Assembly: GCA_020348885.1 (NCBI GenBank)
Contig: CP070755.1
Location: 2,061,600-2,106,088, forward strand
Direction: 5' to 3'
DNA from: Candidatus Coatesiibacteriota bacterium
Lineage (GTDB): Bacteria; RBG-13-66-14; B26-G2; WVWN01; G020348885
DNA length: 44,489 nt
The notes under the pieces were generated by a model that saw nothing but the letters and a program-made list of their open reading frames with translations, made no database searches and was not told the origin of the DNA. This document shows positions 10,803 to 33,406 of this stretch, one piece after another (the stretch's first letter is position 1; each line of letters starts with the position of its first letter). Made by a program: the position numbers and the translations under genes.

Positions 10803-10881
10803 GCGCGGTTTCTACCGTGAGGGATTCGTAAAACCGTGGGGAATTCGTAGCTAGCATCGGTTAGTGCCCGCCCAATCGCCG

Positions 10882-10910
10882 TTGACTTGAACCGGCGCGT
10901 GTGGTAAGTT
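10882..10910 (+). promoter_or_regulatory. Duplicated tRNA-Leu promoter copy
   Basis: TTGACT (10882-10887), 17 bases, TAAGTT (10905-10910). The same promoter, with near-identical spacer, precedes the intact tRNA-Leu at 33325. Confidence 0.65.
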
Positions 10911-10922
10911 TCGACGCGAACC

Positions 10923-10961
10923 GCGAGAGTGGCGGAACTGGCAGACGCGTTGGATTTAGGA
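10923..10961 (+). pseudogene. Truncated tRNA-Leu(UAG) copy (5' half)
   Basis: The 91 bases 10871-10961 match 33273-33363 (promoter plus the 5' half of tRNA-Leu) with about four substitutions. The match covers the acceptor 5' strand GCGAGAG, the D arm and the anticodon loop TTTAGGA, then stops exactly at the end of that loop. The sequence that follows lacks a variable arm, T arm and CCA-side acceptor; only a CTCGC at 10986 could pair with GCGAG. A short direct repeat GATTTAGG spans the breakpoint. A strong terminator follows at 11013, so the chimera is probably transcribed as a short RNA. It cannot be a working tRNA as written. Confidence 0.75.
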
Positions 10962-11012
10962 ACCGATTTAGGTCGGATACGTAAACTCGCTGATATCAAC
11001 AGGATACGACTT

Positions 11013-25728: not shown

Positions 25729-26613
25729 CTACAGCCCCAACATCTCCCTGAACGCCGGGTCGCAATCCTCTTTCATAATGCGGTCGGTCTCGGTGAGGGC
25801 GATTATTATAGCGACGTAGTCGCCCGGCGCGACCTTCCGGCCCTTGCGGTCCTTGAGCCACTTACTGAGTACCTGGTAACCGCCGACGTGGAACTCCCAG
25901 ATGTGTTTGGGGACGGGGCCGATACGGTACCGCTCGTCGGGCGGCTTCTTCGCGTCGAAGATTATCTCTTCGTTCTTCTCGTCGTATTCGACCTTGCCGA
26001 CGACCGCTTCCTTCGCGTCGCCGCGTTGTTCTATCCCCTGCCAGCGCCAGCGGTCTTTGTCCTTGAGGAGGTGGAGCTCCGCGAGGCGCCGGCCCGCGGC
26101 CGCGAGGCGGTCGAAGCTCTCGTAGTCCTTCGGGAAGGGAATACGCGGGAAGTCGAGTTTGAGGAACTCGGCGTAGCGCTCGCGGTACGTGGGGCTGTGG
26201 AGGACGCCGTAGATGTAGTAGAAGATGTCCTCCGGGTAGAGTACCTCCCGCGAGCCGCTCCGCTGCCCCACCTCGGGCGAGTTTTCGAGCGCCCCGGCGC
26301 CGACCGCCGCCAGGAAAGATTCTACGAACTCCGGGGATAGGTTAGGGCGCCGGTCCCCCGCCTTGACCTTTTCGGCGGAGGAGTAGACATAGATCGGATA
26401 AAGGTACGGATTAGCGTGAGCGGTTTCTAATATGTGGAAATCAAAAATATATTCCGTAAAGAAGACGTGGTTATACGTAGGCTTTGTTTGGCGATTAATA
26501 ATTAACGCTAAATTCGCCCCGGCAAACATATGGCGCATGATTTCGGGCCGGGGTCTTTCTATAACTTCAGGCTCATAGAATAACCAACGAATATCGAAAG
26601 GCCGATACGAAAC
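25729..26613 (-). pseudogene. Type ISP-like restriction-methyltransferase, C-terminal fragment (target-recognition region)
   Basis: This frame is open from 26613, directly after the TAA that ends the middle fragment, to the stop at 25729. Its first residues read VSYRPFDIRWLFYEP and ERPRPEIMRHM, a continuous match to the conserved stretch that follows the methyltransferase half in type ISP enzymes. It ends with WEFHVGGYQVLSKWLKDRKGR, the usual C-terminal motif. The nearest ATG for re-initiation is 26538. Only one in-frame stop (26614-26616) separates it from the middle fragment, so it is a nonsense-broken part of the same ancestral gene and not an independent gene. Read-through or a sequencing error would restore it. 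Confidence 0.82.
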
Positions 26614-27012
26614 TTACGCGAAAGTGTGTCTGCCCCTTTTGTTAATAACTTCCCTTGCCTCGGATACGTCTAATTTATCCTTCGCCGATAGATACTTATT
26701 CGCTACTTCCGCGTCGGTTTTATTCGCGTCCAAAAAATCGTATATTCTACGTTTTAAATCGTCGAGGGAGTAATCGACGACGAAACGATCCCGGCTCGTT
26801 ACAATACCGACGTTGTTTACGGGAGCGATGTACGGTAGGCTAACGCCCTTCACATACTCCTCGGCGGCGGCCGCGTCCACTTCGGCGAAGAGGTAGAAAG
26901 GCGACATCGGCTCGACTTCGGCCCACTCGGTATTGGTCACGCCGGTCGTCCCGAGGGCCCCGTACTTGTGTTCGCGAAGGCCGTAAACGTCGCCGCGGTA
27001 GATTTCGGGCAC
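26614..27012 (-). pseudogene. Type ISP-like restriction-methyltransferase, middle fragment
   Basis: This 132-residue frame begins GTG CCC GAA ATC just after the NYN gene and reads RGDVYGLREHKYGALG, NTEWAEVEPMSPFYLF, PVNNVGIVTSRDRFVVDY and KDKLDVSEAREVI. From memory of the family, this order is the segment lying between the methylase motifs and the RPFDxRW block in type ISP enzymes. It joins the C-terminal fragment in the same reading frame across a single TAA. It does not look like a free-standing protein, and its GTG start was probably created by the insertion of the NYN gene. Confidence 0.78.
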
Positions 27013-27014
27013 GG

Positions 27015-27623
27015 TTATCTCCTTTTTATCCTCATACCCGAGAAGAATTTCCTCGATAGAAATATATCGAGGTCCGATTCGTTCATCAAGGCCCTGGTTT
27101 TACTGAAACCCACAAAAACGGCGGTCTTCCCGAAATGTTTTACGCCTTTTAATACTGAAGCGAAGTCGCCGTCGTTGGAGACCAACGCGGCGATATCGTA
27201 ATCGTCGTTTTCGGCTTTCAGTATCATATCGACGGCAAGCGTAACGTCCACTTCCTTTTCCTCGTACGTGTTCCCTTGTTCGCTTTTACACTTCGGGCAA
27301 ACGACCTTGGCTTTCTCCCTGCATTCGGGGCAAATAATATCCCGCTTCTCGAGCCGGCCCAGGTGTAATTCCAATTTCTTGGTATGCATTAACGCACTGA
27401 AGAAGCGCTGTTGAGCCTTTGCTATCTCCGGAAAAACCGACCTGTCCACCGGCGCGTTGTAGTAATAGATTCGAACGAGTTCGGTATCCACCGACAGTTC
27501 GGTACGGATGCGCTCCGTCAGCTTCTCTCCGAATTTATAGAAGTCTACGTTTGCGGCGCCCAGGGCCTTTTTCAGGTTATGGTAAAAATTACTTCCGTCT
27601 ATAAAAACGCAAACCCGCTTCAC
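27015..27623 (-). CDS. NYN-domain (LabA-like PIN-fold) nuclease with internal zinc ribbon, inserted in the methyltransferase gene
   Basis: The protein is 202 residues. The NYN/PIN-like acidic residues are D9 (VFIDGSNFYHNL), D126 and D132 (KEVDVTLAVDMI) and D151/D153 (ALVSNDGDFASVL), as in LabA/Vpa0323-type proteins. A four-cysteine ribbon (C98, C101, C109, C112) is inserted between the second strand region and the KEVD motif. NYN proteins are predicted RNases. The GTG start has a GGGGG site and the gene has its own promoter at 27720-27748. It sits precisely between the N-terminal and middle parts of the split methyltransferase, on the same strand, two bases before the middle fragment. It could be a mobile cargo or a functional add-on to the defence gene. 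Confidence 0.88.
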   Translation of the reverse strand: MKRVCVFIDGSNFYHNLKKALGAANVDFYKFGEKLTERIRTELSVDTELVRIYYYNAPVDRSVFPEIAKAQQRFFSALMHTKKLELHLGRLEKRDIICPECREKAKVVCPKCKSEQGNTYEEKEVDVTLAVDMILKAENDDYDIAALVSNDGDFASVLKGVKHFGKTAVFVGFSKTRALMNESDLDIFLSRKFFSGMRIKRR

Positions 27624-27642
27624 GAGAACCCCCTAAAAAAGT

Positions 27643-27709
27643 ACCCGCCATTGGCGCGCAATGACGGGGAGGTTATTACCCGCCATTGGCTTGCAATGAC
27701 GGGGAGGTA
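27643..27709. repeat. Tandem pair of 32-bp repeats (period 35)
   Basis: Copies at 27643-27674 and 27678-27709 share ACCCGCCATTGGC..GCAATGACGGGGAGGT, split here by two variable bases (GC or TT). The unit resembles the widespread dispersed element with a CGTCATTGC..GCCAATGG core. It lies between the NYN promoter and the NYN start, at the upstream edge of the insertion. Two copies only, so not a CRISPR. Confidence 0.7.
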
Positions 27710-27719
27710 ATCTATGTAC

Positions 27720-27748
27720 TGTATAACACGGTACCCCACCCTTGTCAA
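27720..27748 (-). promoter_or_regulatory. Promoter of the inserted NYN gene
   Basis: On the minus strand TTGACA (27748-27743) and TATACA (27725-27720) are 17 bases apart. It begins just 10 bases after the stop codon of the truncated methyltransferase half, so it arrived with, or was formed at, the insertion. Confidence 0.7.
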
Positions 27749-27757
27749 GTACTTCCG

Positions 27758-29695
27758 TCACGATTTCACCCCCAAAAATATCGCGACGCCCTGCATAATA
27801 TCGAAGACGTTCTCGTCCTTGGAACCGTCGGGGCACGTCTCCTTCTTCTTGGCGTTCCCGTGCAAGTCCAGAAGATAAAGCGTGTCGAAGGTCCCCATCA
27901 GATTCTGCCGCATTCCGCGGAACGTAGGGTTATCTAAATACCCGTGGTTTGTAATCATCCCGACGACGCCGCGGCCGGTCCGGTCTATACGCCACTGGGC
28001 CCACCTTAGGAATTTTACATAGTCGTCCTGTAGCCATTTAGGGTTGCGTTCCCGCAGCGGTTCGCCGTCAACCTCGTAGTAGCCCGGGCGCCGGCCGTCG
28101 TCCGGTAGGTCGTAACCTTTTTTTAACAGCCCGTCTATCCACGGCCCCTTGTTCGCGCTGTGCCCGGCGTAGGGCGGATTACCCAAAACCACCATCACCG
28201 GCGCCTCGGCCTTGACCCGGTCCGCGCCCTCCTTCTCCCGCGAAATCGCGCCCATAATCCCGGGGAGCATCTTCTGCTCAACGTGCTGCTCGGCCTCCTC
28301 CAGCGTGTTCGTCAGGTATATGCCGAGGCGTTGGTCCCGGCGGAACTCGTAGCCGGTCTCGCGGAGGAGTTCGGCGAGCTTCAAATGGGCTATCGTGTAC
28401 GGCGCCATCAAGAGCTCGAAGCCGAACAGCCGCTCCAGGAGGGTGGGAACGTATTCGTTCCACTCGGCGGCGCCGCGAGGGCCGAGGCGCTCGTGGATGA
28501 GCCGGACGACCTCGTAGAGGAACGTCCCGGTCCCGCAGGCCGGGTCGAGTATTATCACGCTCTGGTCCGCCAGGCCGTCGGCGAGGTCGAACTCGTTTTT
28601 AAGGAGCTCGTCTATCGAGCGGACGATGTAACGGACTACCGGGAGGGGCGTGTAGTAGACGCCGCGCTTCTTCGCCTTCTCCGGGTCGTAAACGCGGAGG
28701 AAGTGTTCATAAAAATAAATGACCGGGTCGTGCTCGGCCACCTCCTCGCCCTTGCGCCGCCCGGCGCCGAAACGCGCGAGCTCCTCCGATATGGCGCCCA
28801 TGTCCGCCGCGCCTATCAGCGCGGCCAGGTCCTCCACGATTCCCACGACGCGCTTCGGCATGTCCATATCGTTGACGAGGGAACCGAACACGCGCTTTAG
28901 AAACGGGTTGGTGACCGGCAGCAGGCGCTCGGCCGCGAAACGGTCGAAGCCGGGGCCGTCGGTGTCGCGGGCGTGAATGATACGCGCGGTGAAGAGGCCG
29001 TAAGCGATGGTCTGCGCGTACATATCGGCGAACTCGTCGGCCTTCAGGCCGTGTATAAGCTCGTCTTGGAAAGCGTCGTAAAGGCGCTTGAGGAATTCGT
29101 TCCCCTCGTCCAACGCTTTCCGGGTACGCGCGTCCAGAACTTTCGTCAGCCGCGCCATATCGGGGGCGAGGCCCTTCGCCGTAGCGTGGGGTTCGGGCAG
29201 GGCCGCGAGGAACGCGCCGACGACGTTCTCGAACGCCTCGCGCCCCTCCTTCGTAGTGTGGAACTTGCCGTCGGCGCCTATGTGGCCCAAAACGGCGATT
29301 TGCTCCGGCGCCGGGTCGTGCCGACGGTAGAGCCGCCATTCGACGTAGTTCGTATAGAGGAGGTTGTCGTACTCGGCGAGGTATGTCCTGAACTGCTCGG
29401 CGTTGTGGTCTGTTCGGGCGGCCGCGGCGTTCGCCTCTATTTCGCCGAGGTTAACGGGCAGGTCCTTCGCTTCGACGACGCCGATCAGGTTCTCCCTGCG
29501 GTAGACTTGCACGTCGGGTTTCGCGGCGGCGCCACGCTCGACGATGTGCGCGTTAATGCCGTCTCCGCAGCCGTCGATTAAATCCCTGAGGGCGGGGTAA
29601 TAGGTTTGCTCGCTCGGTCTGCCGCCGGTCGCAAGCTCTTTGTTTATAGCTTTAACGTATCGCCTGAGTGCTTTATTTACGTCAGCCGCGGCCAC
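27758..29695 (-). CDS. Type ISP-like restriction-methyltransferase, N-terminal fragment (nuclease plus N6-adenine methylase domains)
   Basis: This 645-residue fragment has a PD-(D/E)xK-like nuclease site near its start (P60-D61, then E75-A76-K77 in GVVEAKDLP). A helical connector follows, then an N6-adenine methyltransferase domain with motif I DPACGTGTF (384-392) and motif IV NPPY (506-509). It stops at DIMQGVAIFLGVKS, a place where type ISP enzymes normally continue into the target-recognition domain. That remainder is found at 27012-25729. It can no longer recognise DNA by itself unless the fragments reassemble. The GTG start has no clear ribosome site, but a TATAAT (minus strand, 29707-29702) lies seven bases upstream, so the transcript may be leaderless. 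Bases look richer in G+C than the neighbours, which hints at transfer. Confidence 0.85.
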   Translation of the reverse strand: MAAADVNKALRRYVKAINKELATGGRPSEQTYYPALRDLIDGCGDGINAHIVERGAAAKPDVQVYRRENLIGVVEAKDLPVNLGEIEANAAAARTDHNAEQFRTYLAEYDNLLYTNYVEWRLYRRHDPAPEQIAVLGHIGADGKFHTTKEGREAFENVVGAFLAALPEPHATAKGLAPDMARLTKVLDARTRKALDEGNEFLKRLYDAFQDELIHGLKADEFADMYAQTIAYGLFTARIIHARDTDGPGFDRFAAERLLPVTNPFLKRVFGSLVNDMDMPKRVVGIVEDLAALIGAADMGAISEELARFGAGRRKGEEVAEHDPVIYFYEHFLRVYDPEKAKKRGVYYTPLPVVRYIVRSIDELLKNEFDLADGLADQSVIILDPACGTGTFLYEVVRLIHERLGPRGAAEWNEYVPTLLERLFGFELLMAPYTIAHLKLAELLRETGYEFRRDQRLGIYLTNTLEEAEQHVEQKMLPGIMGAISREKEGADRVKAEAPVMVVLGNPPYAGHSANKGPWIDGLLKKGYDLPDDGRRPGYYEVDGEPLRERNPKWLQDDYVKFLRWAQWRIDRTGRGVVGMITNHGYLDNPTFRGMRQNLMGTFDTLYLLDLHGNAKKKETCPDGSKDENVFDIMQGVAIFLGVKS

Positions 29696-30135
29696 GTACG
29701 GATTATAATATATGTTGTAGGAATGGCGAAGCTAAAAAACTACGAAACGCCGAAATAAACAACGCGCGATTCGGACTTTGATATTCGATTATATTGAGTA
29801 GCGATTTGGGAGCGGCGGCCGGGCCGGGTAGACGCACGGCGGCGGGGTGCCGGTTAAGGCGTCGAGTAAAACGTCTATTATCGTCGAGTCGACGTCCGGC
29901 AGTACAGGTGAGGTTAACGCGTAGATGGTTCGTAATATTTCCACTTATACGAAAACGACCCCGAAGGAAACGTAGGACAAGAGACACCCATAATCGTCCC
30001 GCTCGGCAACGCCTAGAACCAAGGTCTCACCGGTATTGCCGTAAGCCCCCTAAGGTCCTAACTCCGTTGGAGGCCGAATATTGATGGTAATATACTAAAT
30101 CGGCTATTTCGGCGTTGGGCCAAGTTAGGCCACAT
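29696..30135. other. Intergenic region with no supported gene
   Basis: In these 440 bases I see no credible gene, tRNA or terminator. The first 15 bases hold the TATAAT-like box for the methyltransferase fragment. The GC-rich part (29810-29860) and the remainder look like decayed sequence next to the defence locus. Confidence 0.4.
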
Positions 30136-30897
30136 TTACGGGGCGGGGATCGTTACAATTTCTGCTATTGTTTTCCGTGAGGTTACGCCCGATGCTTCGC
30201 CGGTAGCAAACGCTTCGACCTCGTATTGCTCGCCTGCCGCTACTTCTGTGTACTTAATACTGAACGGGTGTACGACCGTCTCGCCCGCGGTTACGTTATA
30301 AGATGGTGGAGGGGCAAGCGTACCAGCTACATCCTCGCCGCTCGGTAGTATCTTCGCGTGGAAGTTCAACCCGATGTTGGCGTCAACGTCGCTCTTTACG
30401 CTAACTTTACCTTTAAAATAACCTTCGGGGTCCCAGCGCGGCTCTTCACCCGGAACGAAACCGAACGTAAGGAACTCAATGACTGTTATCCCGACGTCGG
30501 TAGAGGTGAGAGCGGGACCGCCACCCGTTGGTATTAAAGATATCGTTAATACGTAATCACCTGGCGGCATATCCTCGGGTACCCCCAAGGAAAAAAGACC
30601 GTCGAAATTCGGCGAATCCGCGCTGACTACTACGATCGCGGGGTCGCAATTCGATAAGCCGCCACTCGAAATGAAATCGCCGGTGGTTTCCAGGTCGGCC
30701 GTTACCGCAGGGCCTGACGTATGGGTTACGCGGTAATAGTAGTCCTTCTCCGTGAAACCTTGCCCTACTTCGAGGGCTTGCGGGTCCGTACCAATATCTA
30801 CGTCGGCACCTGGTTCGCACGCCGCCAAAAATAGCGTTAACAACCCGTATAAAAGCGTTAACGCCCCAAACTTTAAAACCTTAACCGCTTTCATCAT
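30136..30897 (-). CDS. Predicted lipoprotein of unknown function
   Basis: The protein is about 253 residues. A basic start and hydrophobic core lead to the lipobox LFLAAC, so the mature protein begins at that cysteine (CEPGADVDIG). The rest is beta-rich with Ig-like character (GDYVLTISLIPTGG; STDVGITVIEF; KYTEVAAGEQYEVEAFATGE), suggesting two extracellular beta-sandwich domains. I do not recognise a family. ATG 30897 or 30894 is preferred to GTG 30903 by spacing from AAAGGTGG. A promoter is visible at 31072-31100, leaving a long leader of about 165 bases. Confidence 0.7.
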   Translation of the reverse strand: MMKAVKVLKFGALTLLYGLLTLFLAACEPGADVDIGTDPQALEVGQGFTEKDYYYRVTHTSGPAVTADLETTGDFISSGGLSNCDPAIVVVSADSPNFDGLFSLGVPEDMPPGDYVLTISLIPTGGGPALTSTDVGITVIEFLTFGFVPGEEPRWDPEGYFKGKVSVKSDVDANIGLNFHAKILPSGEDVAGTLAPPPSYNVTAGETVVHPFSIKYTEVAAGEQYEVEAFATGEASGVTSRKTIAEIVTIPAP

Positions 30898-31071
30898 TTC
30901 CACCTTTCCCTTCTCGCGTCGGTCCTCTATCCGTTATTAGGCCGTATAGTCTCGTCGCGCGGGATAAAGAACCGAACGTCATAAGTGGATACTATGAATG
31001 TATAGTAAATCAGTCGTATCGATTATATTGCTTATCTAGTTATGTATAGCTTATCATTTATTCCTGATACC

Positions 31072-33201: not shown

Positions 33202-33283
33202 TCTCGATAATGATTATTATGTATCCGCGCAGGTCGCGTTCAGCGGCCGGAGCGGACGGATAAATGCGCTGTCCCAATCGCCC

Positions 33284-33312
33284 TTGACTTGAACCGGCGC
33301 GTGTGGTAAGTT
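33284..33312 (+). promoter_or_regulatory. Promoter of tRNA-Leu
   Basis: TTGACT (33284-33289), 17 bases, TAAGTT (33307-33312). It is duplicated at 10882-10910. Confidence 0.75.
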
Positions 33313-33323
33313 TCGGCGCGAAC

Positions 33324-33406
<83 letters not shown>

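Follow-up and report, generated by a model that had tools for sequence, protein, structure and literature searches.

Why is a gene for a restriction-modification (RM) enzyme interrupted by an intact nuclease gene, and does the interruption mark a broken enzyme or one made of two chains? The question is raised by a locus of Candidatus Coatesiibacteriota bacterium (assembly GCA_020348885.1, contig CP070755.1), found in a stretch of 44,489 bp (positions 2,061,600 to 2,106,088 of the forward strand) that is referred to here as the window and is numbered from its first base. On the minus strand of 25729–29695, an RM gene is followed by a gene for a NYN-domain nuclease and then by a specificity (S) gene. 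The locus probably represents a helicase-less enzyme of the ISP/IIG-IIL kind in two-gene (RM + S) form, in which the linker of a single chain has been replaced by a stop codon, a cargo gene and a new start. This linker has also been opened by other cargo in unrelated genomes. The joint is best read as a site at which embedded defence or toxin genes land, NYN being the passenger of this locus.

Organization of the split locus

The locus is composed of the following features:

27758–29695, minus strand: RM gene (645 amino acids, aa) with a PD-(D/E)xK nuclease, a helical part and an N6-adenine methylase (Pfam/PADLOC)
27624–27757, minus strand: RM–NYN spacer of 134 bp, from the RM stop to the NYN start, with a candidate promoter inside
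27748–27720, minus strand: candidate promoter TTGACA-17-TATACA within the RM–NYN spacer
27642–27711, strand unassigned: two tandem 35-bp palindromic units (repeat search)
27015–27623, minus strand: NYN-domain nuclease gene, the embedded cargo, intact, 202 aa (Pfam/PADLOC)
25729–27012, minus strand: S gene with a type ISP C-terminal specificity domain and a GTG start (Type_ISP_C in both parts)
26614–26616, minus strand: in-frame TAA in the S gene, a single stop beyond which the frame continues
26317–26853, minus strand: recognition core that differs between two versions of the locus (approximate block, version comparison)

The order of transcription is RM, NYN, S, and the NYN stop codon is followed by two bases and then by the GTG of the S gene. 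The RM and S pieces together are the counterpart of one enzyme of about 1050 aa in relatives. A preliminary description of this DNA had read its three minus-strand pieces as one enzyme with the NYN gene exactly at the joint. Both points are borne out: the pieces match one enzyme family in PADLOC and Pfam and are collinear on the PADLOC model PDLC03610, and the intact NYN gene lies between the RM and S genes.

RM and S gene products

The RM gene product carries the nuclease and the methylase on one chain, with matches to N6_Mtase (Pfam, 4.8e-12) and REase_MTase_IIG (PADLOC, 7.7e-148). It contains the methylase motifs DPACGTGTF and NPPY and ends in QGVAIFLGVKS before the stop; P60, D61, E75 and K77 (PD...ExK) as well as NPPY (506–509) are invariant among 11 relatives of the RM piece. 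Residues 3–604, which run along the length of the RM piece, align with the single-chain enzyme of PDB entry 7lo5 (1029 aa), and the methylase aligns with LlaBIII (4xqk, 8e-55). Both alignments stop at ...GVAI..VK, which is the joint. On LlaBIII this stop falls at residue 1147, and the recognition core of that enzyme starts at residue 1205 (PMC4872093). The Pfam scan of the RM piece returned no helicase family, and unsplit relatives are about 1020–1100 aa long compared with 1578 aa for LlaBIII. By its domain content the enzyme is a short, helicase-less, type IIG/IIL-like relative of type ISP of about 1050 aa. The earlier label of a type ISP-like gene is corrected accordingly: with no helicase found, the enzyme does not belong with canonical type ISP enzymes of the LlaBIII sort.

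The two parts of the S gene (26614–27012 and 25729–26538) lie in one frame and match Type_ISP_C with 1.8e-6 and 9.6e-61, respectively; as the preliminary description had read them, they are parted by a single in-frame TAA. Against the 1096-aa model PDLC03610, the middle piece covers 658–767 and the last piece 833–1064, collinear with the RM piece. Type_ISP_C is the only family that the S piece matches; an HsdS-like subunit, with its two half-site domains, is not indicated. As for the TAA, it probably arose later and independently as a lesion in this specificity allele, or is a sequence error, and it probably disables the allele.

Recurrent splitting at the same joint

Relatives were surveyed with the RM piece as query and with no selection for splitting, in one scan of 84,980 species, in viral contigs and in whole-genome searches. 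Several of the phylum searches yielded few genomes, and two phyla were added once splits had been noticed in them. The classified loci comprise 119 unsplit genes, 13 joint splits (including the two of the window's genome), four interruptions in the S half and four in the N half; a few loci were cut by contig ends. Most relatives are unsplit, among them the nearest relative in the phylum (G008), which has a 1058-aa frame with a fused recognition domain and 60.7% identity in the M piece. In the least biased set, the 80 best loci of the species scan, five are split at the joint (L066, L075, L109, L116 and L137). The 13 joint splits fall into about seven lineages, counted by eye from the tree. Those interruptions elsewhere in the gene that were opened (L077, L099, L103, L138 and L160) are single stops or frameshifts without cargo. 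Viral contigs contained no joint split among the classifiable ISP-like loci.

The joint window of 35 residues makes up 3.3% of the gene, and about seven joint lineages among 15 interruptions give a binomial tail of 2e-7, to be taken as a rough guide. On a tree of 132 rows, with rows that had contig ends or other interruptions set aside, the split label needs eight changes by a quick method that left some forks open, which implies several origins of the split, or an origin followed by loss. Decay had been proposed as a cause of the split, and recurrence at the same joint in about seven lineages argues that it is not. An arrangement conserved in other genomes as separate intact genes, which the preliminary description had named as evidence against decay, was largely found in these lineages. 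Two further loci flagged automatically as joint splits were rejected, L061 as a different subfamily or frameshift and L174 because of a contig end. Three plasmid matches annotated as split were likewise set aside, one being a frameshift with overlapping genes (H1) and two being intact (H3 and H4).

Cargo and geometry of the joint

The genes found at the joint differ between loci. Two RM genes that are 88.6% identical (G192 and G193) carry different HicB–HicA pairs, which are only 34–37% identical. The joint of Argonema antarcticum (L066) holds six small genes, namely a HicBA pair, a DUF433–DUF5615 pair and a further pair with a HicA-family member. A DUF1016/YhcG nuclease is present in three genomes (G094, G200 and G197), a DUF2283 gene in one (G340), an IS200-type Y1 transposase in a Melioribacteraceae bin and a Bro-N gene in a Bacteroidetes bin. 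Two loci, of a Planctomycetota and an Ignavibacteriaceae bin (L075 and L137), are split at the joint without cargo. A filled–empty comparison is provided by the unsplit gene L126, whose RM piece is 89–90% identical to the split genes that carry the Y1 transposase and Bro-N. The first HicB of Argonema antarcticum is 74% identical to that of the G192 joint, and G192 lies outside the cyanobacteria by its RM gene.

The linker that is replaced has a median length of 12 residues in unsplit genes. Split S chains begin a few residues ahead of a VYHADLWG-like strand, with starts such as MAKIYHADLWG, MPKIYHADLWG, MAKVYHSEIYG, MTKVLHADLWG and MPEIYRGDVYG. The RM stop and the cargo start share 4 nt in five of the loci, an overlap expected of operons. 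In an AlphaFold model of the unsplit L126, the joint is the loop 606–612 between the neighbouring beta strands 597–605 and 613–619. In two other unsplit genes, L076 and L043, the joint linker contains repeat-element-like peptides (VIPAKAGIQ...DSRLRGSD and PSPLTPLPKGE...LSPRERVGVR), so that the joint also accepts in-frame insertions.

Second version of the locus within the assembly

When the genome of the window was searched, a second NYN gene, 99% identical to the first, was identified in a second version of the locus (L003 5834–10896, 5063 bp). This version is 99.3% identical to window positions 26854–30916, which include RM, NYN and the spacer, and its RM and S genes are likewise parted by NYN. 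The recognition core differs, with mostly 18–43% protein identity between the versions and mostly 83–100% in the flanks. After the core the versions are alike again (91% DNA identity over window 25910–26317). The S gene of the second version is uninterrupted up to an assembly gap and matches Type_ISP_C with 1.7e-64. The RM genes differ by 12 synonymous changes and one non-synonymous change, so that RM reads as maintained, and the 134-bp RM–NYN spacer shows no differences (0/134). Upstream of RM, an open reading frame (window 30136–30903) that is lipoprotein-like and has no Pfam match is identical in the second version at 768 of 768 bases.

The second version is flanked by gaps of exactly 100 N (L003 5734–5833 and 10897–10996) and may accordingly be a paralogue or a misplaced strain allele. 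Gaps of this length may mark a strain allele or a repeat-broken contig placed into a scaffold. Whether paralogue or allele, it retains both the split and NYN together with a changed core and an S gene free of interruption, which argues against decay.

NYN gene and its upstream spacer

The NYN gene product matches Pfam NYN (3.5e-19), as a LabA/DUF88-like nuclease, and, over residues 1–177, the PADLOC family HEC-09 (7.1e-25). HEC reportedly denotes the Hma-embedded candidates of Payne and colleagues, with Hma standing for helicase-methylase-ATPase. Although the HEC-09 profile is matched, this gene is embedded in a split ISP-like RM gene without a helicase and not in an Hma cluster. The protein has a zinc-ribbon-like CxxC pair, and its acidic residues D9, D126, D132, D151 and D153 are invariant. 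Its AlphaFold model has a predicted local distance difference test (pLDDT) score of 89, with PDB entry 2qip as the best fold match. These family residues and the modelled fold make RNase activity plausible for this RNase-like, HEC-09-type nuclease. One further copy of the gene, and no more, is present in the genome; it sits in the second version of the RM locus, and the idea of NYN as a mobile element with copies elsewhere was rejected on this ground. A scan of viral contigs with NYN gave no match, and searches of phages and plasmids gave distant matches only (below 60% identity).

The NYN gene had been said to have its own promoter. The candidate TTGACA-17-TATACA was not reported by the consensus scan, which requires a final T, and promoter-like sites were no more numerous than in shuffled sequence, so the earlier statement reduces to a possible promoter. 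The palindromic unit adjoining NYN is followed by U6 and is terminator- or attenuator-like, being the best terminator-like match of the region; the two units have an RNA fold z-score of -2.6, and elsewhere in the genome the 35-bp palindromes occur in the second version only. Speculatively, they may attenuate the transcription of NYN and S relative to RM.

Comparison with known systems

Type IIG/IIL enzymes cleave at a fixed distance from an asymmetric site and methylate one strand. Helicase-less members of the TspGWI/TaqII family (7lo5/7lvv, 1029 aa) resemble the present enzyme in having a nuclease, a helical part, a gamma-type N6-adenine methylase and a single recognition domain in this order, but these and DrdV-like enzymes are one fused chain, whereas here there are two genes, with a foreign one inserted at the linker. 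Type ISP enzymes in the strict sense carry a superfamily 2 (SF2) helicase/ATPase between nuclease and methylase. LlaBIII and LlaGI share the homologous methylase and the Type_ISP_C specificity domain with this locus; they are single polypeptides with a helicase/ATPase, in contrast to the split, helicase-less arrangement described here. The recognition domains of the TaqII family resemble those of type ISP (PMC5587805). In the type IIB enzymes BcgI and BsaXI an RM chain also works with a separate S chain, although that S chain is HsdS-like with two halves, where the present one consists of a type ISP domain that has a single recognition core.

The embedding of accessory genes in RM operons has been described (PMC11411939, PMC12707154). 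PrrC is a tRNase that is freed upon inhibition of its type I enzyme (PMC12707154), while TgvAB defends independently (PMC11411939). Type I operons with PrrC, TgvAB and the HEC families resemble this locus in that an additional gene, for a toxin or a nuclease, is placed between the methylase and the specificity function. In those operons the genes on either side of the cargo are separate in every case, whereas here it interrupts a normally single gene at one fixed linker. Neither the embedding of defence or toxin genes in RM operons nor the use of separate RM and S chains, as in type IIB, is thus without precedent. Literature searches, with preprints (including the one that defines HEC) outside their scope, returned no report of type ISP/IIG genes split with cargo at the joint.

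Proposed function and alternative explanations

A single-chain enzyme would here have become RM and S subunits, comparable to hsdM-cargo-hsdS operons or to BcgI. Both chains would be expressed from a single operon and come together again as an active enzyme, in the manner of BcgI RM and S or of HsdM and HsdS. On the structural model, the first strand of the S chain may dock beside the last strand of the RM chain across the joint, which would restore a site-specific methylase/nuclease. The recognition core would be exchangeable as in type I S genes, and the difference between the two versions looks like specificity exchange. NYN may add a defence or toxin activity that is expressed with the RM operon, by analogy with PrrC, TgvAB and BrxU, which ride in type I or BREX operons. 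Its role may be PrrC-like release, TgvAB-like independent defence or that of a passenger. It is unlikely, though worth stating, that the joint is a docking point for guarded toxins (NYN, HicA, YhcG and others) restrained by the RM–S complex. The embedded toxin would then act once a phage inhibits the complex or the S chain is lost, and a PrrC-like system would have arisen repeatedly in single-chain RM enzymes. The preliminary description had suggested a composite in which the RNase acts when the methylase is lost; this came nearest of its readings, except that NYN is only one of many alternative cargoes.

Several observations weigh against the two-gene form with an embedded defence gene. The S gene of the window is interrupted, so this copy may be non-functional, and the NYN genes of the two versions differ by three synonymous and two non-synonymous changes, a number too small for selection to be shown. 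Within the same order, the relatives of NYN stand alone as genes, and NYN occupies the joint in no second lineage among the surveyed loci, although the preliminary description had proposed to look for it at this point in other genomes; the link of NYN to RM is that of one genome. The model of L126 is of moderate quality (mean pLDDT 70, about 80–85 around the joint). Part of this would suit a linker that simply tolerates insertions, with halves that assemble whatever lands there and NYN as a neutral or selfish passenger functionally unlinked to the enzyme. We regard this as a tentative alternative, somewhat short of an even chance. The diversity of cargo, from the transposase and the lone DUF2283 gene to no cargo at all, and the repeat-element-like peptides and solo NYN relatives are consistent with it; most of the cargo, however, belongs to the toxin–antitoxin or nuclease classes that type I operons also carry, near-identical hosts have exchanged their HicBA pairs, and starts and stops are tightly packed or overlapping.

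The in-frame TAA could be taken to mean that the insertion destroyed the enzyme and that the stop codon came after, but in the second version the same split precedes an S gene that is not interrupted; this, the few non-synonymous changes in RM and the same split as separate long genes in other genomes make such decay very unlikely. Still less probable is a phase-variable or read-through specificity gene with a reversible or suppressed TAA. A single stop with an open frame beyond it and two specificity versions in one assembly would fit. At 26614, however, the repeat search showed neither a homopolymer nor a simple or inverted repeat, its repeats all lying elsewhere, and with no repeat or inversion seen that could switch the TAA, this earlier suggestion is left unsupported; similar single stops or frameshifts occur in three relatives (L103, L138 and L160), and the versions differ by the whole recognition core and not by the stop. 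Chances are about even that assembly has intervened, with the second version a misplaced strain allele or the TAA a sequencing error. A 5063-bp piece between gaps of equal length, with an upstream lipoprotein-like gene and an RM–NYN spacer identical to those of the window, favours this. Against it, the window is free of N, genes split in this manner are present in many independent assemblies, and, allele or paralogue, the second sequence still has an uninterrupted S gene behind the same split. The two-gene RM + S form remains the reading that we prefer.

Elsewhere in the window, a 94-nt direct repeat (95%) at 10871–10964 and 33273–33366 includes the start of a tRNA-Leu. ARAGORN reports a tRNA at 33325–33406 only, so the copy at 10871–10964 may be a remnant of the tRNA-Leu with its upstream region.

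Implications for ISP- and IIG-type enzymes

Embedded genes in multi-gene RM operons could be chance neighbours, whereas here a normally continuous gene has been opened, and one short linker has been opened about seven times independently for genes of the same sorts. This makes the joint a sequence-defined hotspot in which new embedded effectors can be sought, and its many paired filled and empty sites offer a means of distinguishing cargo that guards the restriction enzyme from cargo that is simply carried along. The split genes would also be natural evidence, at the level of sequence, that an enzyme of type ISP/IIG can function with RM and S on separate chains, which may be useful for specificity engineering.

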